DNA of 64,000 nucleotides from Nitrosomonas oligotropha (lineage in GTDB: Bacteria; Pseudomonadota; Gammaproteobacteria; Burkholderiales; Nitrosomonadaceae), in the NCBI RefSeq assembly GCF_900106555.1, contig NZ_FNOE01000002.1, positions 1-64,000 on the forward strand, written 5' to 3'. Made by a program: the position numbers and the translations under genes. Under the pieces are notes generated by a model, which saw nothing but the letters and a program-made list of their open reading frames with translations, ran no database searches and was not told the DNA's origin. Each line of letters begins with the position of its first letter. Position 1 is the first letter of the stretch. Shown in pieces: positions 22,647-32,268 of the stretch.

Positions 22647-23312
22647 TTAAACGGCTGATTCTTTTCTGCGGCTTACCATAAATCCCATTAAACCCAAACC
22701 GGCCAGAAGCATAGCGTAGGTTTCCGGTTCAGGAACGGGACTCAGAGAGTCGTTTGTGCTGAATGTTGTGAAATCACCAGCTCCTCCAATCCTGAATTGG
22801 GCTTGCTGACCGCCGTCACAGCAACCTTCAAGGCCGTAGAGGTTGAGCGTGTGAAAACCGGCGGCAAGATTCAATGTATTGATACTCAAATACTGTGATG
22901 AATCGCTGTAGCTGCCATTCCACCACATATCATTTGTTTTGAAATCATATGCTGATCCATCGACAAAAATGGCGCCGCCGTGACCAAAATCAACACCGGC
23001 ACGAATTTGCCATGCCCCTGCATTTGCTGGGGATACATAAAAATCAACAGTTGATTTAAAGGCTATGTCAGTTGTCGAGCCACCAGCAAATAATCCATGA
23101 TTGGAAATGTTGTCATAAATTGCAGGGGTCGCAATTCCGTAACCAATTGATGGGATTGCAACGGCTGAATCAACTACGGATTGATATGCTGCTGCGTCAA
23201 TTTGAGGGCCTGCGGTTGAGAAACCCGTTTCAATTGTTATTGAGCTGGCGTTAGCACCGCCAAATAATGCAAGCGATATTGCGGTAACTGATAATGTGAA
23301 AGTTATTTTCAT
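22647..23312 (-). CDS. CCXG-family PEP-CTERM protein
   Basis: 221 residues from ATG 23312, preceded by AGGAG. It has a signal peptide (MKITFTLSVTAISLAL...ANA), a beta-rich secreted domain, the paired-cysteine motif GLEGCCDGGQ near residue 170, and a C-terminal sorting signal: PVPEPETYAMLLAGLGLMG helix then RRK. PEP-CTERM proteins are processed by exosortase and linked to exopolysaccharide or surface matrix. No exosortase is in the window. It stands alone, about 740 bp from the polysaccharide operon and divergent from it. Confidence 0.88.
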   Translation of the reverse strand: MKITFTLSVTAISLALFGGANASSITIETGFSTAGPQIDAAAYQSVVDSAVAIPSIGYGIATPAIYDNISNHGLFAGGSTTDIAFKSTVDFYVSPANAGAWQIRAGVDFGHGGAIFVDGSAYDFKTNDMWWNGSYSDSSQYLSINTLNLAAGFHTLNLYGLEGCCDGGQQAQFRIGGAGDFTTFSTNDSLSPVPEPETYAMLLAGLGLMGFMVSRRKESAV

Positions 23313-23589
23313 AAGACTCCTGTTATACAGCATTAGATTGTTAAACTACTTAGGATATATGGTCCGTTATTTCTAACCAGCGCAGAGCAAATCAAAGTTA
23401 AATTGCTCAATGAGTGTGTGCAATTGAGCAGCATCATAATTTCTGTCCATCCACATGAATGTTAATAGAACTTGAGCCGATCAACTATGCGAAAAATCAC
23501 AGCTCATCGTTTAATAAACCCTGCGCGATTGGTTTATCGGTATATCCGGAAACGGCTTTAAGAAAGAAGAATATATTTTTGTAGACTCT

Positions 23590-23815
23590 TGGATTGCAAA
23601 TGCTGTGGATAACTTTGTGAGTAATTCATGTGTTTGGAAATTTAACTCATCGATTTCTAAAGATTTCCATTGACTTGCTCATTTATTTTACACATTGATT
23701 ATGAGCTAATTATCATCAAGTTATTACTGCTTTTCATGCTGCGCGCCCATTTGATCAAATGAAGTCCATCATTGACTGGGTTTGTGGATTGTTTAAATGA
23801 TCAAATAAAAATTAC
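23590..23815 (+). repeat. Dispersed repeat with DnaA-box-like motif, copy 3 (diverged)
   Basis: TGCTGTGGATAACTTTGTG (box TGTGGATAA at 23604-23612) is followed by TTTCTAAAGATTTCC, TTTTACACATTGATTATG, AATTATCATC and TTGTGGATTGTTTAAATG in the same order as copies 1 and 2. The rest of the 23313-24053 gap is AT-rich and must hold the promoter of the operon at 24054; no clear promoter was identified. Confidence 0.65.
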
Positions 23816-24053
23816 GGTGAATTGAATCGATAGAGAATTTTCTGAATTGTTTGGGATGGAATTTTTCTTTCAATACGTCGATATAAAACCGATTTCTTGC
23901 TTTATTCGAGCTATCTGTGTAAGAAAATATGAGTATAATGGTAAGAAGACACACTAGGTGATGTTTTTAAGATAATGATTATATTGCAATTAGTTTGCAA
24001 TATCCGATGCGTTATAAAAGACATAATTGATTTAAGATTATTTTAAGTTAGCG

Positions 24054-25436
24054 ATGCTTATATTTTTCTCCCTAGAGAAGACTGATTTATTGGATCCGTA
24101 TCAGGATCTTTTTGAAATTTACCATTTCGGTGATTTTTCGGATTGGGAGAAAAAGAAAATCATTCCTTCCGCGTTTGTTATTGCGGGAAATGATAAACAA
24201 TATACTGCGTCGATTCTTGCCAAGATACGCAGAGATGACGAAGTTTTTGCATCACTGTGTTTTGCGGCAGATCCGGTTGCAGCGTCTGATAACTTGTTGC
24301 TCGATGGACAATTGCCGCAGCCTCCGGTTTTGCTGGAAGCGGTTAATCAAGTTGAAAGCTTGCTGAAGTCGCTGAAGGGCAATGAGACCTATATCACACA
24401 CCAAGGACGGTTAATAAAATACTTGTGGTTACGCCCTGATTTCATTCTTCAGCCGCACCATGAGTGGCAAAATCCGCGTTTTTATCGCTATCCTTTGCTG
24501 GAGGCGTTGAGTCAGGACAGATCCGATTCCTTCGAGTGGTTGCGCAATCTCGCCAATAACAAAATAATTGAACCTTTGACGATGCTCGACCGGCAGCGCG
24601 AATGTGCTTATTGCCGCTCGGCGCACTTGAGTTTTATTGATGTATGCCCGAATTGCCAGTCGATCGATATCAAGCTGCAAGCTTCCTTGCATTGTTTTAC
24701 CTGCGGTTGTGTCGATGTGCAAGATAAATTCATGCATAGCGGTACGCTGGTTTGTCCCAAATGCCATACGCATTTGCGGCATATTGGCAGCGACTATGAC
24801 CGGCCTATCGAGAATTATCGCTGTCAGTCTTGCAGCCACTCGTTTATAGAAGGCGATGTGCAAGTCCGCTGCGCGATGTGTGAAAAAGAGATGCAGCCGG
24901 GAGAGCTCATCTTGAATGAAGTACACAGCTGGCGCTTAAGCGATAAAGGAAGAACGGTTGCTTTCCGGGGAGAGGTATTCGACTTGTCCTCGGGGTTTGA
25001 TCAGCTGGATTTTATTTCCCGCGAGTTATTCCTGCATGATCTTGATTGGCAAATGGTTACATCCCGCCGTTATCCCAATGTGCATTTCAGTTTGTTCGGG
25101 ATCTACTTCGCCAATCTGCCGGATCTGGTCGAACTTTTCAACCATGCGCGCCTGCTGCAAATGCTTGAAGCCTTTGCTCAACGATTAAGAAGCTTGCTCC
25201 GGACCCCGGATCTTTCCACGCGGACTTCGGAGAATATGCTGTGGTTGCTTTTGCCGAATACCGATGAACAAGGATTACAGGGTTTTCAAAAACGCATCGA
25301 AAGCAGTATGAATGTACTGTTGGAAGAAAGTGAGCATAAGCTGGATTTCCGTTTTATCGGTATTTCCTCGCAGAATATACCCGCTAAGGAAAGTGCTCCG
25401 CTCCTGCTGGCGCGTCTCGCGGGCGAGTTGCTATAG
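24054..25436 (+). CDS. TackOD1-type zinc-ribbon protein with degenerate GGDEF domain, putative c-di-GMP receptor
   Basis: 460 residues, cytoplasmic. The central region has three pairs of zinc-ribbon CxxC motifs (C184/C187 with CPNC; CFTC with CPKC; CQSC with CAMC), consistent with the TackOD1 metal-binding output domain. The C-terminal 125 residues follow the order of a GGDEF domain, but the signature is SENML at 392-396, so cyclase activity is unlikely. The inhibitory-site motif RxxD is intact (R383-T-P-D386) at the correct distance, with R390 also as in canonical enzymes. This suggests c-di-GMP binding without synthesis, as in PelD. It ends 3 bp before the GT2 gene and probably controls it. 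Confidence 0.75.
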   Translation: MLIFFSLEKTDLLDPYQDLFEIYHFGDFSDWEKKKIIPSAFVIAGNDKQYTASILAKIRRDDEVFASLCFAADPVAASDNLLLDGQLPQPPVLLEAVNQVESLLKSLKGNETYITHQGRLIKYLWLRPDFILQPHHEWQNPRFYRYPLLEALSQDRSDSFEWLRNLANNKIIEPLTMLDRQRECAYCRSAHLSFIDVCPNCQSIDIKLQASLHCFTCGCVDVQDKFMHSGTLVCPKCHTHLRHIGSDYDRPIENYRCQSCSHSFIEGDVQVRCAMCEKEMQPGELILNEVHSWRLSDKGRTVAFRGEVFDLSSGFDQLDFISRELFLHDLDWQMVTSRRYPNVHFSLFGIYFANLPDLVELFNHARLLQMLEAFAQRLRSLLRTPDLSTRTSENMLWLLLPNTDEQGLQGFQKRIESSMNVLLEESEHKLDFRFIGISSQNIPAKESAPLLLARLAGELL

Positions 25437-25439
25437 TTC

Positions 25440-26765
25440 ATGGAAAGTCTGAATCAAGCCTGGAGCTTTTTTCTTATCGCAACGTCGCGCTTCCAGGATA
25501 TTGAGTACGTCTTCATGCTGATTCCGTTCGTACTGTTTTTTGAATTACCGCTGTATTTTGTCAATTGGATGAGCGTTTTTCGCTATCTGTTTAAAAAGTC
25601 GGTGGATGCACCGGTGTCGTTTCCTTACTATCCGCGCGTAACTTGTGCGATTACCTGCTACGCCGAAGGAAAAGCGGTACAGAGTACGGTGATTTCTTTA
25701 CTGGAACAGATTTATCCGGGGCATATTGAAATCATTGCGATGGTCGATGGCGTGCAGAAAAATTTAGCCACGTATCAGGCATTGAAAGAACTCGTGCCGG
25801 TGGTTGCCAATTATCCCAAGCGCTCATTGGTGATCATTCCGAAAATTCAACGCGGTGGTAGGGTCTCATCATTGAACGCCGGACTGAGCCGGGCGCAAGG
25901 TGAGATTTTTCTCGCTTTGGATGGCGATACATCGTTTGATAATCAAATGATCAGTTCCGCTGCCGCTCATTTTCGCAACCCTGATATTGTCGCGGTAACG
26001 GGGCCGATGCGTGTGCGTAATGCCAGAAAAGCGATCATTACCCGGCTGCAGAGTCTGGAATATATGTTGATCATGCAGATAGGGAAACTAGGGTTTGCGA
26101 AACTGAATGTCATTAATAACGTCCCTGGCGCGTTTGGAATTTTTAGAAAGTCCTTTATCCAGAAAATTGGCGGATGGAATACCGGGACCGCCGAAGATCT
26201 TGATTTGACATTGCGCATCAAGCAATACCATCAGCGTTATCCGCATCTGAGGATTGAATTTGAACCCGGCGCGGTTTCGCATACCGATGCACCGGAAAGT
26301 TTCAAGGATTTTTTAAAGCAGCGCCTTCGCTGGGATGGCGATCTTTGGTATATCTACTCGAATAAACACAAGTACGGTATTTCCGCATCGAGGATGGGGT
26401 GGAGCAATTTTATATTTCTGCTCTGGTACGGCATTCTGTTTCAGATCGTCATGCCTTTTTCTATCGTGATTTATACGATCTACATGGCGGTAAAGCTGCC
26501 TATGCTGACTTTTTTTCTAAGCATGGTACTGGTCTATTTGTTCTATTTAGGCTTGATTACCCTGCAGTACATTCTTTATCTTGTGCTCGTCTCAGACAGA
26601 AAATGGGAGGACTGCCAAGCTGCTTTGATCCTGCCTGTTTATCCGTTGTTCCAGTTTGTTTCGCGCGTCTGGAGCGCTTTTGCAATTTTAAACCAGATAC
26701 TGAACAAAGGTCACTTGGATTCCGCAATGGCGCCTTTGTGGGTGCTTAAAAAGGGAAAACAGTAA
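25440..26765 (+). CDS. Processive family 2 glycosyltransferase (polysaccharide synthase)
   Basis: 441 residues. N-terminal membrane segment(s) (about 20-48), a cytoplasmic GT-A domain and C-terminal membrane helices (about 322-405). The processive GT2 motifs are all present: first Asp in AMVDG, DxD as D161-G-D163, TAED at 250-253, and QRLRW at 294-298. This is the cellulose synthase/PgaC/hyaluronan synthase arrangement, so it should polymerise a beta-linked glycan and thread it through the membrane. It has no PilZ domain, so c-di-GMP control, if present, would come from the upstream gene. Sugar unknown. Confidence 0.88.
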   Translation: MESLNQAWSFFLIATSRFQDIEYVFMLIPFVLFFELPLYFVNWMSVFRYLFKKSVDAPVSFPYYPRVTCAITCYAEGKAVQSTVISLLEQIYPGHIEIIAMVDGVQKNLATYQALKELVPVVANYPKRSLVIIPKIQRGGRVSSLNAGLSRAQGEIFLALDGDTSFDNQMISSAAAHFRNPDIVAVTGPMRVRNARKAIITRLQSLEYMLIMQIGKLGFAKLNVINNVPGAFGIFRKSFIQKIGGWNTGTAEDLDLTLRIKQYHQRYPHLRIEFEPGAVSHTDAPESFKDFLKQRLRWDGDLWYIYSNKHKYGISASRMGWSNFIFLLWYGILFQIVMPFSIVIYTIYMAVKLPMLTFFLSMVLVYLFYLGLITLQYILYLVLVSDRKWEDCQAALILPVYPLFQFVSRVWSAFAILNQILNKGHLDSAMAPLWVLKKGKQ

Positions 26766-26767
26766 AA

Positions 26768-28939
26768 GTGCGCATTTTCCCGCTACTGATGTTGTTTCTG
26801 CTACTGATGCTGACAGCCAATGCAGGTGCTGAAGTTAAAACGCTGACCGAGTTTTATACGCATCTGGAGCAAGCTGCGACGGTCCTGAAAGCGAAGGCGG
26901 ATTTGGAAGCGCAACGCTCGAACTTGAATGTGCAGGAAGCGCAGAAAGGCTGGGAGATATTTGGCGGAATATCGGCTGGTTATCAAAAAAGCCCTTTTGC
27001 CAGAGAGCCTTTCGGACATTTCTTCGATCCGATGGGCCGCATCGGGGTGCGCTATCCCTTGTTAGGCAGCGCGGAGAGACAGCAACGGGCGATCAATGAT
27101 GCCGCCACGCAAGTAAAAATTGATGATGTCCGCCTGGATTGGAGCAAACGGCTGGCGCGGCTCTTTCTGGAAGAAAACTACGCGGCATATTGGAGCGCAA
27201 AGAAAATGCTGGCTTTGACCGAAGCCTACTTGCGTTTGCGCGATGATGGCGTGATTTCCATACTGCATAAACGGCGCGAAGCGGGTTTGTTATTTATGTC
27301 GGATTATCTCGAGTTTCTTTCTGCATTTGATCGCGCCGAACGATCGCAAATCGAATTCAGCAATAACCGCGATCAAGCATTGATCAGACTGGGTTATTTA
27401 ACGAATTCGGAAATACGGCCGTTCGAACCCGTAAAACCGGTGTTGTATGCGATCGACAGCAATACGCCGATCGATATCGAGCAGCTGGATCTAAAAATAC
27501 TGCAAGCACGGATAGAAAATATTCAAAAGACTAAAGAGACCGAGAACTGGCGTGGCATTGATTCGGATGTCAACGCCACCGCTTTTGGCGGTCCGGCCAT
27601 TCCGCATCCTTCGCCTGAATCCATGCAGATGGGCTATGGCGGCGCAGTCGGTTTTAATTTCCGTATGCCGATCGAAATTATGAGTGTGCGGAAGAATGAG
27701 GAATCGCGCTTGAACAGTCTGTTGATTAGTCTGCGAGCGGACTACACGCACCGCGATCAGGAACTGCAACATGAATTCCGCGCTTTGCTCAGCAGTTATC
27801 AACAGCTCGCGCAGCAAATCAAATTTCAGCATACACGCTTGGAGGCGGCGCGTGAGTTGATCCGTGAAAGACATTTGCGTCTGAAGATTTTGGATGGCGA
27901 TGTGATCGAGAAATATTTTCAAGCGGTTAATACGTATTACCGGGTGGCTATCGAGAATGTCGAAACAGAATCGGAACAATGGAAGCTGCATATCCGGTTG
28001 CGGCAATTCCTTACGCTGCTGGAGGGAAAAGGCAGGGATATTCACCCGGAAATCAACTTAAGCCAATTGACTGATCCGCTGCAACAAGCGGCATCGTTTC
28101 TTGTCAGTGGAGAAAAAAACAAGGCTGCGCCAAAGCGCACCAGTTTCTCTGCTGCCGGTAATGCAGAAGCTTCGTCCGGGCGCGTTGCCGTGTATGTCTG
28201 GAACTTTGACAAATTAAGCACGCAACCCGGTTTATGGGAGAAGAATCAAACCATCGAGATCGATCGCTTCCTGATTTCTTTGGATCAGCAGCAGATTTCA
28301 AAATTTGCCGCAAATCCCGCGCCGCTTAAAAAATTTCTAACCGAAGCGCACCGGCGAGGAAAAAAAGTTGAATTGCTGTTAGGCGATCCTGATTGGATTC
28401 TGCCGGAGCAGCGCGAGAAGCTGCTCATGATCGTCAAGAAATTGAGCAATATTAATTTCGATGGCCTGCATTTGGATATCGAACCGGATCAACTGGAGTC
28501 GGACTTGCCTGGCAAGGCGCGTCTGGAAGAATTGATCGAGACGGTGCGTCAAGTGTCGGCTGTTTCTCCGTGGCCGGTAGGCATCAGCATTCACCCGCGC
28601 TATCTGACGAAAGCCACATCATTTGATATTTGCGTGCTCTGCGAACTCAAGGCAAAAGGGATCAAAGAGATTACCGTCATGTATTACGCGATGAATCTGA
28701 CGAATATCGTGACTGCGCTAAAGTCGGCCATGAATCAATATCCGGATCTGTTATTCAGTTTGGCGCAAAGCCTGGAATCAGAATTGGGTCCGGAGAATAG
28801 TTATGTGCATAAGCCGCAATCCATTTTTATTCATGCAATGCAACAATTGCAGAGCCAACTCCGGGCCCCTAATTTTACCGGGCTAGTTATTCAATCATGG
28901 CAAGATTTGGTAAGCTATCTTCATGAAAATACATTTTAA
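26768..28939 (+). CDS. Fusion of TolC-like outer-membrane channel and glycosidase-like TIM barrel
   Basis: 723 residues, GTG start 2 bp after the synthase stop. A signal peptide (1-21) is followed by a long helical region (about 25-430) of the outer-membrane efflux (TolC) type, then a Ser/Ala-rich linker (about 435-470). The C-terminal domain (about 473-723) begins VAVYVWNFDKL and reads as a TIM barrel. At 564-572 FDGLHLDIE nearly matches the GH18 active-site signature, with E572 where the catalytic acid would be and His where Asp is usual. The combination suggests export plus trimming or binding of the glycan in one polypeptide. Enzymatic activity is inferred. Confidence 0.78.
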   Translation: MRIFPLLMLFLLLMLTANAGAEVKTLTEFYTHLEQAATVLKAKADLEAQRSNLNVQEAQKGWEIFGGISAGYQKSPFAREPFGHFFDPMGRIGVRYPLLGSAERQQRAINDAATQVKIDDVRLDWSKRLARLFLEENYAAYWSAKKMLALTEAYLRLRDDGVISILHKRREAGLLFMSDYLEFLSAFDRAERSQIEFSNNRDQALIRLGYLTNSEIRPFEPVKPVLYAIDSNTPIDIEQLDLKILQARIENIQKTKETENWRGIDSDVNATAFGGPAIPHPSPESMQMGYGGAVGFNFRMPIEIMSVRKNEESRLNSLLISLRADYTHRDQELQHEFRALLSSYQQLAQQIKFQHTRLEAARELIRERHLRLKILDGDVIEKYFQAVNTYYRVAIENVETESEQWKLHIRLRQFLTLLEGKGRDIHPEINLSQLTDPLQQAASFLVSGEKNKAAPKRTSFSAAGNAEASSGRVAVYVWNFDKLSTQPGLWEKNQTIEIDRFLISLDQQQISKFAANPAPLKKFLTEAHRRGKKVELLLGDPDWILPEQREKLLMIVKKLSNINFDGLHLDIEPDQLESDLPGKARLEELIETVRQVSAVSPWPVGISIHPRYLTKATSFDICVLCELKAKGIKEITVMYYAMNLTNIVTALKSAMNQYPDLLFSLAQSLESELGPENSYVHKPQSIFIHAMQQLQSQLRAPNFTGLVIQSWQDLVSYLHENTF

Positions 28940-29996
28940 TCAACCAGAAAATAAGGCTCCGGATATCGACCGGGGATTACGGGTTCAATATAGCGCCGCC
29001 AAACGAGCCGGTAGGCCGTGGCGCTGGTATTTGATTATTGCCATTTCTAGCCTCCCGGTGGTGTATTTGCTCGGGACGATTATTTGGGACACGATCAGCA
29101 TTGAGGCCAATGGCCGCATCCGGGTGCCTAGCTTTACCGTGCGTACCGCTGTGGATGGCTATGTTGAGCAGCTTTTTGTCGAGCCGTTGCAGACAGTTTC
29201 CGAAGGTGCGCCGTTAGCTGAACTGGTGAATGCCGCATTGCTGGATAGCCGTGACCGGCTGCAGGTGGAGCTGGATGGGCTGAAACAGGAAAGGCACAAG
29301 ATGTTGCTGCAAGCCGATGATTCCAGAACAAGCTCGGTTCAGTTGTTGAAATTCGCGCACGAACAGAAGCATTTCGCATCCCAACGCTTGAGTCAGTATG
29401 AGACCTTGTACAAACAGGGCGCCGCAACACAAGCTGAAATTGCGCTGGCACGAAGTCAGTTAAACTCGGCGCTGGAAAATCTGGTGGCGCTGGAGAAAGC
29501 GCAACGCCAGGAACGTGACCGGATGTATAGCCAGGAACAAGGCCAGTCTCCGGAAATGCGCATGCTTTCAAACCGGATCAATCAGCTGCAACTCGAATTT
29601 GATAAAACTCAGGATCAAGTCCTGCAGTTAAGCCTGTTTGCGCCATCGGGCAGCGGCATGGTGACAGAGGTGTTCACGCAACCCGGAGAGTTTCTGGGGC
29701 GTGGCCAAGCCTTGCTTGAGATCATATTTCCCGAGAAAGTGCATATCGATGCATTCATTCCGCCAAAATACCAGGACTATGCCGTAGTGGGGCAAATGGT
29801 CACGGTCAAATTCCCTAACGGAGAAAAAGCCGAAGCAAAAATAATTTCCGTCCCCGGTGTGATGCAGAAGTCTACGACGGCTGAAATTAACCCGCTGGAA
29901 ACGGTCCGTTTTGCAATTTTGGCGCAATTGGAATTTGTCGGAAACGTGAAAAACCGGTTAATCAATGGCATGCCGGTTACGATCTATTTACACTGA
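28923..29996 (+). CDS. HlyD-type membrane-fusion adaptor of the polysaccharide system
   Basis: 357 residues, overlapping the previous gene by 17 bases. A short cytoplasmic N-terminus, one membrane helix (about 36-58), a lipoyl half-motif (VRTAVDGYVEQLFVEPLQTV), a coiled-coil hairpin (about 110-225), the second lipoyl half (LFAPSGSGMVTEVFTQPGEFL) and a beta-barrel domain complete the HlyD/EmrA plan. It should bridge the inner-membrane synthase and the TolC-like channel across the periplasm. Last gene of the operon; no ABC transporter is encoded nearby, so the synthase itself probably drives export. Confidence 0.88.
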   Translation: MKIHFNQPENKAPDIDRGLRVQYSAAKRAGRPWRWYLIIAISSLPVVYLLGTIIWDTISIEANGRIRVPSFTVRTAVDGYVEQLFVEPLQTVSEGAPLAELVNAALLDSRDRLQVELDGLKQERHKMLLQADDSRTSSVQLLKFAHEQKHFASQRLSQYETLYKQGAATQAEIALARSQLNSALENLVALEKAQRQERDRMYSQEQGQSPEMRMLSNRINQLQLEFDKTQDQVLQLSLFAPSGSGMVTEVFTQPGEFLGRGQALLEIIFPEKVHIDAFIPPKYQDYAVVGQMVTVKFPNGEKAEAKIISVPGVMQKSTTAEINPLETVRFAILAQLEFVGNVKNRLINGMPVTIYLH

Positions 29997-30109
29997 CAAA
30001 CCAGTTGGCCAAAATGCGCTACATTCCGGAAATAGGCCATCAGCCGGTTTCATGATCCGCCAAGAATTTACTCCGCCTCTTGAGGTATCATCTTCTTTAC
30101 CCTGAGCAA

Positions 30110-30240
30110 TTTTGATTTATCCACATTTTTTGTGGATAACATTGTGTATAAGATTTATTTTCGATCATTAACTTAATGGACGCTAAAGAGAATTTTCCCT
30201 CTGCCTAATAACTTAACACTTTAATTATGTATTATGTATC
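30110..30240 (+). repeat. Dispersed repeat with inverted DnaA-box pair, copy 4 (short)
   Basis: TTATCCACA (30117-30125) and TGTGGATAA (30131-30139) form a perfect inverted pair around a T-rich centre. Then CTAAAGAGAATTTTCC and CTTAACACTTTAATTATG follow in the same order as in copies 1-3. It occupies the middle of the 29997-30414 gap; the hairpin may also end the upstream operon. Confidence 0.65.
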
Positions 30241-30414
30241 ATCCGGTTACAAACACTTTCTTTTTCTATATATCAGCCGCTATGTTTTGTATGGCGTGTT
30301 AACATTGGCTGCTGTGTGCTTTGGATAAGCGGATCATTGATACAACTGGCATTCGCAAGTTTGCTTTCCTCTCTTAAGCTGTTCAATCGGGTGTTCTGAA
30401 ATTTTTACAATGTT

Positions 30415-32268
30415 ATGCTGAATATTCAGTCTGTGACTTATCTGCAAGGCGGCGTTCTGCTGCTGGAAAATTGCCATTTGCAGATTTTTGCCAATCAGCG
30501 TGTTGGTTTGGTCGGTAAAAACGGGTGCGGGAAATCCACTTTGTTCCGTTTGATCCGAGCAGTGATCAAGCCGGATAACGGCGAAGTCAGTTTGCAATCG
30601 GGCAAAACCGTTGCGTTCGTTGAACAGGAGATCGTTAACTCGGCGCAGTCTGCCATTGAATTTGTACTGGATGGTGACGTGGAATTGCACCGGTTGGACA
30701 AAATTCTGGCTCAGGCTGAGCACGATGCCGCCTGGTTTGAAGCGCAGCAGCGCTATGAAGCCATTGACGGCTATACCGCGCGCGCGCGGGCGGCGCAGCT
30801 ATTGAGCGGATTGGGTTTTGCCAACGCCGCGCTGGAGCAACCGGTTGATCATTTCTCGGGCGGCTGGCGGATGCGCTTGAATCTGGCGCGCGCCTTGATG
30901 CACCGTGCAGATTTGTTGTTGCTCGATGAACCGACCAATCACCTGGATCTGGAAGCGATTCTTTGGCTGGAGCAATATCTGGCGCGCTATCCGGGCAGTT
31001 TGATCGTGGTATCGCATGATCGTGAATTTTTGAATGCGTGCGTCAATCGCATTGCGCATATCAATGACCGGAAAATCGACAGTTATAGCGGCAATTATGA
31101 TGATTTCGAGCGCGCACGCGCCGAGCGTCTATTGCAACATAACCAGGCTTTGCAGCAACAACAAAGACAAATTGCGCACATGGAGGACTTTGTGCGGCGC
31201 TTCCGCGCCAAGGCTACCAAAGCCAAACAAGCGCAAAGCCGCATTAAGGCGCTGGAACGCTTGACGCGTCTGGCGCCGTTGTCTGTGGAAGATGGTCACT
31301 ACGAGCTGCAAATTGAAGCGCCGGAACGCAGTCCTGATGTGTTGCTGCGCGCACAAGACATGAGCTTTGGTTACGGCGATCATTTACTGTTTCAGCATGT
31401 TCATCTGATCTTGCAGGCAGGTGCACGGATTGCATTGCTGGGACCGAACGGGGCGGGAAAGTCGACCTTGATCAAACTGCTGACTGGAGAAATTCAACCG
31501 GTAACCGGTTCATTGGAGTGGGCGCAAAATATCCGTATCGGTTACTTTGCGCAGCATCAGCTGGAAAATCTCGATGGTAAGGCAACGCCTTTGCAGCATA
31601 TGCAGAAACTGGCGCCGGCGCAAACCGAACTGGATTTGCGGAAATTTCTGGGGCGGTTTGGGCTTGGCGGAGATGGTGAGGATCGCCCGGTCGCCAGTTT
31701 TTCCGGAGGCGAAAAGAGCCGTCTGGCGCTGGCTTTATTGGCCTGGCAAAAACCGCATTTGCTGTTATTGGATGAACCGACCAATCATCTGGATCTGGAT
31801 ATGCGCGATGCGCTTACGTTAGCGCTGGAAGCCTATAGCGGCGCCGTGGTGCTGGTTTCGCACGATCGCAGCCTGGTGCGTGCGGTGGCGGATGAATTGT
31901 GGCTGGTGGCTGATGGTAAAGCACAGCTGCTCGATGGCGATCTGGAGGATTACAAAAGCTGGATAGAAGCGCGCCGTTCCAGTGAAGCCGCGGAATCAAA
32001 GCCAGTTTCGCAAAAAATGCAGCCCAAAACAGTAGCGAAACCGAACAAGAAGGCATTGCTGTCGAAACAAGCAAAACTCGAAGCAACTTTGGCGTCCGCG
32101 CAGAGAGAATTGACCGAATCGAACCGCCGTTTAGCGGATCCGGCGACGTATACGAGCTGTCCGCGCGAGGAAATTGACCGACTCAGCGCCCTTCATGCGG
32201 CACTCGAGGAAAAAGTAGCTGAACTCGAAGAAAACTGGCTGGAACTAGAAATGGCGATGGAAGAGTGA
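30415..32268 (+). CDS. yheS: ABC-F ATPase, YheS type
   Basis: 617 residues with two ABC ATPase domains: Walker A GKNGCGKST and GPNGAGKST, signatures FSGGWRMRL and FSGGEKSRL, and Walker B LLLDEPTNHLDL twice. The linker between domains contains the P-site tRNA interaction motif region with RRFRAKATKAKQAQSRIKALE, typical of YheS. The C-terminal 75 residues form a charged coiled coil. There are no membrane segments. ABC-F proteins act on ribosomes rather than in transport; YheS is linked to relief of translation stalls. Confidence 0.92.
   Translation: MLNIQSVTYLQGGVLLLENCHLQIFANQRVGLVGKNGCGKSTLFRLIRAVIKPDNGEVSLQSGKTVAFVEQEIVNSAQSAIEFVLDGDVELHRLDKILAQAEHDAAWFEAQQRYEAIDGYTARARAAQLLSGLGFANAALEQPVDHFSGGWRMRLNLARALMHRADLLLLDEPTNHLDLEAILWLEQYLARYPGSLIVVSHDREFLNACVNRIAHINDRKIDSYSGNYDDFERARAERLLQHNQALQQQQRQIAHMEDFVRRFRAKATKAKQAQSRIKALERLTRLAPLSVEDGHYELQIEAPERSPDVLLRAQDMSFGYGDHLLFQHVHLILQAGARIALLGPNGAGKSTLIKLLTGEIQPVTGSLEWAQNIRIGYFAQHQLENLDGKATPLQHMQKLAPAQTELDLRKFLGRFGLGGDGEDRPVASFSGGEKSRLALALLAWQKPHLLLLDEPTNHLDLDMRDALTLALEAYSGAVVLVSHDRSLVRAVADELWLVADGKAQLLDGDLEDYKSWIEARRSSEAAESKPVSQKMQPKTVAKPNKKALLSKQAKLEATLASAQRELTESNRRLADPATYTSCPREEIDRLSALHAALEEKVAELEENWLELEMAMEE

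Follow-up and report, generated by a model that had tools for sequence, protein, structure and literature searches.

Four genes of a candidate exopolysaccharide synthesis and export system, designated A, B, C and D, were analysed in a stretch of 64,000 nucleotides of Nitrosomonas oligotropha (contig NZ_FNOE01000002.1, positions 1 to 64,000), hereafter the window. In the list of open reading frames (ORFs) of the window, they occupy positions 24054–29996, with gaps of 3 bp between A and B and of 2 bp between B and C, and with an overlap of 17 bp between C and D (Table 1). The location, the spacing and the set of products, namely, a zinc-ribbon/degenerate-GGDEF protein, a family 2 glycosyltransferase (GT2), a TolC channel with a barrel and an HlyD adaptor, had been described in an earlier sequence-only reading of this DNA and were confirmed by the ORFs, Pfam and fold prediction. 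The nearest upstream ORF of at least 100 aa is located at a distance of 720 bp on the opposite strand, and the downstream gene of an ABC-F type ATPase, on the forward strand, begins 418 bp past D; accordingly, A–D form an isolated group of four genes.

Table 1. Coordinates of the operon genes and of the barrel domain in the window
Feature	Coordinates	Strand	Description
Gene A	24054..25436	+	460 aa; MxdA-type c-di-GMP receptor candidate: N-terminal domain, TackOD1 114-295, degenerate GGDEF
Gene B	25440..26765	+	441 aa; MxdB-type family 2 glycosyltransferase, putative processive synthase
Gene C	26768..28939	+	723 aa, GTG start; TolC-type outer-membrane channel fused to GH18-like TIM barrel
GH18-like barrel domain of C	28178..28936	+	residues 471-723
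Gene D	28923..29996	+	357 aa; MxdC-type HlyD periplasmic adaptor

Gene A encodes a protein with the domain TackOD1 (PF18551, E 3.8e-68; Pfam matches were taken up to E = 1), followed by a GGDEF domain recognised at 26.6 bits, barely above the cut-off of 23.8. In place of the GGDEF motif, residues 392–396 read SENML; intact GG[DE]EF was found in 0 of 106 A proteins and in 0 of the 223 rows of a second alignment, in which 102 locus proteins are mixed with the 120 listed of 421 database matches, some of them possibly duplicated. The RxxD site, R383–D386 with the sequence RTPD, is preserved, at the spacing of the inhibitory site for cyclic di-GMP (c-di-GMP) in GGDEF domains; R383 and D386 are jointly kept in 101 of the 106 proteins, and RxxD in 198 of the 223 rows. 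The assignment of A as an active diguanylate cyclase was rejected on account of the lost motif, and the view of the sequence-only reading that the GGDEF domain is catalytically dead is borne out. Twelve cysteines, as well as H213 and H243, are conserved in 90–100% of the 106 proteins, and no hydrophobic membrane segment is present. Relatives of A include a 96% identical protein of Nitrosomonadaceae and a 95% identical one of Nitrosomonas oligotropha Nm45. TackOD1 was described as a cysteine-rich domain of archaeal response regulators, present in some bacteria, with a function called obscure (PMC5847659).

The product of gene B matched GT2 families in Pfam. It contains the motifs D103, D161xD163, TAED (250–253) and Q294RLRW298, of which D103, D161, D163, D253 and Q294RxRW298 are invariant in 97 of 97 relatives, while T250, A251, E252 and L296 vary, and hydrophobic segments are located near both its N- and C-terminal ends. 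The nearest NCBIfam model, PgaC (TIGR03937), gave 140.1 bits, far below its cut-off of 422.3, and the CelA model (TIGR03030) gave 19.3 bits against a cut-off of 699; PilZ was not found in the Pfam scan. Cellulose synthase and true PgaC were rejected as assignments of B by these scores.

In the product of gene C, OEP/TolC is the sole Pfam family matched and, together with the predicted TolC fold, covers residues ~23–418, while the C-terminal part is without a match. In the predicted structure, a low-confidence linker (448–471) joins the TolC part to a C-terminal barrel, which begins at residue ~471–473 and reached a pLDDT (predicted local distance difference test) score of 94.9 when folded alone. 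Comparison of the barrel profile with the sequences of the Protein Data Bank (PDB) yielded chance-level matches only, the best with E 0.17, and assignment therefore required comparison of folds. The closest folds were those of glycoside hydrolase family 18 (GH18), in agreement with the glycosidase-like barrel supposed earlier; 4f9j, the C-terminal barrel of PgaB, was also among the matches. The motif characteristic of GH18 is DxxDxDxE at strand 4. In the barrel, strand 4 is closed by FDGLHLDIE, whose residues D570 and E572 are shared by all 83 of 83 relatives; M638xY640 is located at strand 6 and Q709xW711 at strand 8, with M638 kept in 83, Y640 in 80 and W711 in 76 of the 83. One relative of C (L116) matched Pfam GH18 at E 4.5e-4 and 20.4 bits, below the cut-off of 29.6. 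A barrel-only protein of Synechococcus (L040, 12557–13387) opens with lipobox-like LLSGC; in this host, the barrel on its own is possibly a lipoprotein. A TolC–glycosidase fusion was not met in the literature search, which covered open-access papers.

The product of gene D belongs to HlyD families (Pfam), with a hairpin and a single hydrophobic segment at residues 35–56; thus, both the GT2 and the TolC/HlyD parts named by the sequence-only reading are confirmed by Pfam. EmrA was the only match of D among PDB sequences at E up to 0.1. The N-terminal tail, with K2, P13, G18, Y23, R28, R34, W35 and Y36 kept in 86–90% of 105 rows, suggests that D touches a partner in the cytoplasm or the inner membrane.

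Homology to the Mxd system of Shewanella

One of the related loci (L130), which we take to be that of S. oneidensis MR-1, carries homologues of A, B and D, which we regard as candidates for MxdA, MxdB and MxdC. Identity to the window proteins is 36.7% over 300 aa for A (E 4e-64), 45.7% over 416 aa for B (E 1.6e-136) and 28.9% over 315 aa for D (E 8e-24). The A protein of L130 contains TackOD1 (4.7e-71) and has RVTD where A of the window has RTPD. Thus, in S. oneidensis MR-1 (mxdA = SO4180), the TackOD1/dead-GGDEF, GT2 and HlyD genes are adjacent and follow the relative order of A, B and D, but the TolC–GH18 gene found in the window between the GT2 and HlyD genes is absent. Homology of three of the four genes assigns the operon to the Mxd system, and A is, to judge from its sequence, a homologue of MxdA, the reported c-di-GMP effector, with a catalytically dead GGDEF domain.

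After the HlyD gene of L130, an ORF of 122 aa without a Pfam match was taken as mxdD, whereas the window has no such gene: no forward-strand ORF of at least 100 aa lies between D and the ABC-F gene, although no sequence search with mxdD was made. In three other Shewanella loci (L133, L134 and L136), no same-strand ORF directly follows D among ORFs longer than 110 aa, which makes mxdD doubtful as a family-defining gene. TackOD1 exceeded the cut-off in 16 of 129 Shewanella genomes.

The cluster mxdABCD was described as a putative exopolysaccharide cluster; mutants in mxdA or mxdB showed an aggregation defect in minimal medium, and those in mxdB formed no three-dimensional biofilm (PMC3691769). 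MxdA was reported as a c-di-GMP-binding effector, interacting with CheY3 and probably triggering the Mxd machinery (PMC7666153, PMC11395469), and two other CheY proteins also interacted with it in two-hybrid assays (PMC7666153).

Accordingly, the statement of the sequence-only reading that no described system has this combination does not hold, since the A–B–D core is homologous to mxdABC of S. oneidensis and a GT2–HlyD–TolC assembly was already proposed for XcsAB-TolC (PMC3691769, PMC7666153, PMC12430437). No exopolysaccharide operon combining GGDEF, TolC, HlyD and glycosyltransferase was found in open-access full texts; work on Mxd with TolC in a subscription journal could have escaped this search. 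As far as open-access searches reach, three points are new: the TolC–GH18-like fusion in a Mxd-type system, the presence of TackOD1 in MxdA and how widely the family is spread.

Conservation, distribution and history of the operon

Relatives were found by a conserved A peptide, with one genome per species, and the best 80 of 124 loci were fetched. The order A–B–C–D or A–B–barrel–D was observed in 75 of these 80, a few with split ORFs, and in the remaining five, the contig stops at most 1.9 kb downstream of A. The hosts include Nitrosomonas, Nevskia, Pseudomonas, Stutzerimonas, Marinobacter, Vreelandella, Gulbenkiania, Burkholderia and Desulfobacterota, as well as two metagenome-assembled genomes (MAGs) of Synechococcus and one MAG of Sedimentisphaerales; since the members from Cyanobacteria and Planctomycetota are MAGs, binning errors are possible there.

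Loci sampled with the hidden Markov model (HMM) PF18551 are a fairer test of conservation than the peptide-found 80. Among 22 new loci of this kind, B adjoins A in 20, D is present in 18 and the barrel in nine; two loci have A alone, and in two of the four that lack D the contig comes to an end. Genome G262 contains two A–B–D loci (L113, L114). The conserved synteny for which the sequence-only reading had called is therefore seen both in the peptide-found and in the HMM-sampled loci. In the converse comparison, all nine matches to B with at least 390 bits in 398 genomes were located in genomes with TackOD1, the next match having 134 bits. At E 1e-30, nine weaker matches (108–134 bits) were found, five in TackOD1 genomes and four outside them (G050, G147, G223, G351), and in the TackOD1 genome G218, B is below this limit. 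The synteny in related loci and the converse comparison rule out chance neighbours, and the four genes form, on the evidence of gene order, a conserved unit.

The distribution of the system is patchy. Genomes with PF18551 above the cut-off number 15 of 398 in the phylum of the window, its own counted, 8 of 247 in the phylum sampled from the Desulfatitalea locus, the centre counted, and 1 of 244 in the cyanobacterial sample, which is the centre itself; the samples around G516 and G518 include those centres by construction. Gene C was found in 33 of 120 genomes of the family of the window, the own genome counted.

Six plasmid records matched, of which four were examined. Mobilizable plasmid pKAM329_3 of Aeromonas caviae (29 kb; L126, 8001–13823) carries consecutive genes of diguanylate cyclase, glycosyltransferase, TolC and HlyD, i.e., the whole set A–B–C–D, while plasmids of Plesiomonas, Photobacterium and Rhodobacteraceae carry A–B–D only. 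Recent transfer is suggested by the B protein of the Aeromonas plasmid, which is almost the same as its counterpart in Stutzerimonas degradans (branch lengths 0.0027 and 0.0026).

A tree of B was built for 105 proteins, with L002/L003 standing in for the window; 9 of 114 loci were dropped because they were truncated, lacked B or had multiple B ORFs. Sixteen loci that lack C, among them those of Shewanella, Plesiomonas, Photobacterium and Rhodobacteraceae, form a clade with a support of 94 in the Shimodaira–Hasegawa-like approximate likelihood-ratio test (SH-aLRT), and 78 loci with the fusion or with the barrel alone form a second clade beside it (SH-aLRT 84). Ten deep loci of mixed composition and long-branched L118 are outside both main clades. 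The root is the midpoint, supports of the main clades are under 95, long branches may be misplaced, and the Myxococcota labels (‘Deltaproteobacteria’ MAGs) were not relied on. The three labels for gene make-up require 7 changes, compared with 35.9 when shuffled, a contrast inflated by near-copies. The TolC–barrel fusion thus appears to be an old form inherited with the operon, and TolC was probably lost in one group of Pseudomonas, whose separate barrel begins with a signal-like N-terminus.

Proposed export mechanism and alternatives

The operon probably represents a c-di-GMP-gated, Mxd-type system for synthase-dependent exopolysaccharide production that has its own exit through the outer membrane, to which a periplasmic hydrolase is joined. 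From the homology to MxdA and the motifs of A, we infer gating of B by A: c-di-GMP would bind the RxxD site of soluble A, which in this form would switch on synthase B in the inner membrane. The genome of the host (3.32 Mb in 80 contigs) contains 30 GGDEF matches, A included, which makes c-di-GMP signalling plausible there. B would polymerise a sugar and push the polymer through the inner membrane; since B is PgaC-like and the barrel is GH18-like, the sugar is most likely N-acetylhexosamine. In two loci, D is directly followed by a gene of GalE-type epimerase, which is a hint, short of proof, of a galacto-configured sugar: the product scores 194.6 bits in Pseudomonas (L044, 14624–15565), below the GalE cut-off of 262.3, and 421.6 bits, above this cut-off, in the plasmid of Rhodobacteraceae (L128, 11580–12587; galE). 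D, anchored beside B, would connect it to the TolC trimer of C, and the polymer would cross the periplasm and the outer membrane via a single conduit. At the periplasmic end of C, the GH18-like domain may trim or clear stray polymer, a role played in other systems by PelA, PgaB, AlgL and BcsZ.

Several observations weigh against this interpretation. H replaces the middle D of the GH18 motif in the window (DGLHLDIE) and in 77 of the 83 relatives, other glycosidase barrels are just ~2 Z below the GH18 folds, and activity of the barrel is only predicted. RxxD is absent from 5 of the 106 A proteins, and 2 of the 22 sampled A proteins are without a GT2 neighbour; these TackOD1–dead-GGDEF proteins (L119, 8835–10256; L122, 1975–3411) possibly belong to another partner system. 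C is absent from all ten Shewanella loci examined, which are A–B–D, and from the plasmid loci of Plesiomonas, Photobacterium and Rhodobacteraceae; C is therefore not required by all members. In the open-access literature, we met no description of the polymer that any Mxd system makes. MxdA was also cited as an indirect controller of c-di-GMP levels (PMC3691769), which is not easily explained by a pure receptor. A correlation of distances between the proteins would also follow from the common history of the species.

The substitution in the GH18 motif, along with the presence of the xylanase-inhibitor protein (XIP) and concanavalin B among the best fold matches, bears on a variant of the same operon in which the GH18-like domain would be no enzyme but a module for binding or guidance; XIP and concanavalin B are non-chitinase members of this fold with no known activity. 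The invariance of D570 and E572, the conservation of M638, Y640 and W711 and the GH18 match of L116, although below the cut-off, argue against such a module, and this variant is considered rather unlikely, with some chance left to it. The conserved Cys/His cluster of A would also suit a zinc-ribbon scaffold, insensitive to c-di-GMP here and signalled by a protein partner, e.g., CheY, as the interactions of MxdA with CheY3 and with two more CheY proteins in two-hybrid assays might indicate (PMC7666153). In contrast, R383 and D386 were jointly kept while catalytic positions decayed, and MxdA was reported to bind c-di-GMP (PMC7666153, PMC11395469), so that an insensitive A seems unlikely. Another reading, in which an efflux or type-I-like pair formed by C and D shares only an operon with the glycosyltransferase and the product is a glycosylated small molecule or protein, is highly improbable: TolC and HlyD are efflux families and the only PDB match of D is EmrA, but D starts at most 13 bp from the end of C or overlaps it in the 22 loci showing both, which leaves no room for a pump gene between them (neighbourhoods were not searched for pump genes as such), and both aggregation and biofilm structure are affected in mxdB mutants (PMC3691769).

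The proposed c-di-GMP-gated system shares features with known polysaccharide systems. Similar to the operon of the window, Pel combines a dead GGDEF protein with RxxD as a receptor (PelD) and a periplasmic hydrolase (PelA), but it is not known to have an HlyD/TolC pair. A variant of Pel was rejected, as A matched PelD_GGDEF (PF16963) at 23.2 bits, under the cut-off of 27. The Pga/Hms system of poly-N-acetylglucosamine (PNAG) resembles the operon in that PgaC is the NCBIfam model nearest to B and the PgaB barrel is among the fold matches; however, the PgaC score is 140 bits against a cut-off of 422, and no family of the PgaA or PgaB type was found by Pfam in the four proteins. The idea of a GT2–HlyD–TolC path is shared with XcsAB-TolC of Thermosynechococcus, proposed as a tripartite exit for cellulose with a glucanase, a model described as without experimental validation (PMC12430437). 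XcsA is a cellulose synthase with PilZ, whereas B is not of the CelA type.

A wider view, for which the chances appear about even, is that TackOD1–degenerate-GGDEF, GT2 and HlyD define a separate, unrecognised class of synthase-dependent exopolysaccharide systems, present in several phyla and on plasmids. In its fullest form, the hydrolase would be welded to the channel, placing as many as three glycosidase domains around the periplasmic end of each conduit, and TackOD1 would be a hub joining c-di-GMP, and perhaps CheY, to the polymer machine. With the relatives described here, a half-understood biofilm operon of Shewanella becomes a widespread family, and TackOD1 gains a recurrent place beside a glycosyltransferase. 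The dedicated TolC is a candidate outer-membrane route for Mxd-type systems, and the specificity of the hydrolase domain could reveal the polymer. For ammonia oxidisers, the operon points to a regulated matrix polysaccharide.

Surroundings of the operon

In the Rfam scan of positions 23000–30500, no family reached the gathering threshold. Promoter-like sites numbered 13, compared with a mean of 12.2 in shuffled sequence, and no promoter is claimed. Between the operon and the ABC-F gene, an inverted pair TTATCCACA-ttttt-TGTGGATAA is located at 30117–30139, which doubles as a terminator-like stem; its arms are two head-to-head DnaA-box-like 9-mers. Upstream of the operon, on the reverse strand, the gene of a PEP-CTERM protein was found at 22647–23330; PEP-CTERM sorting is frequently linked to exopolysaccharide.
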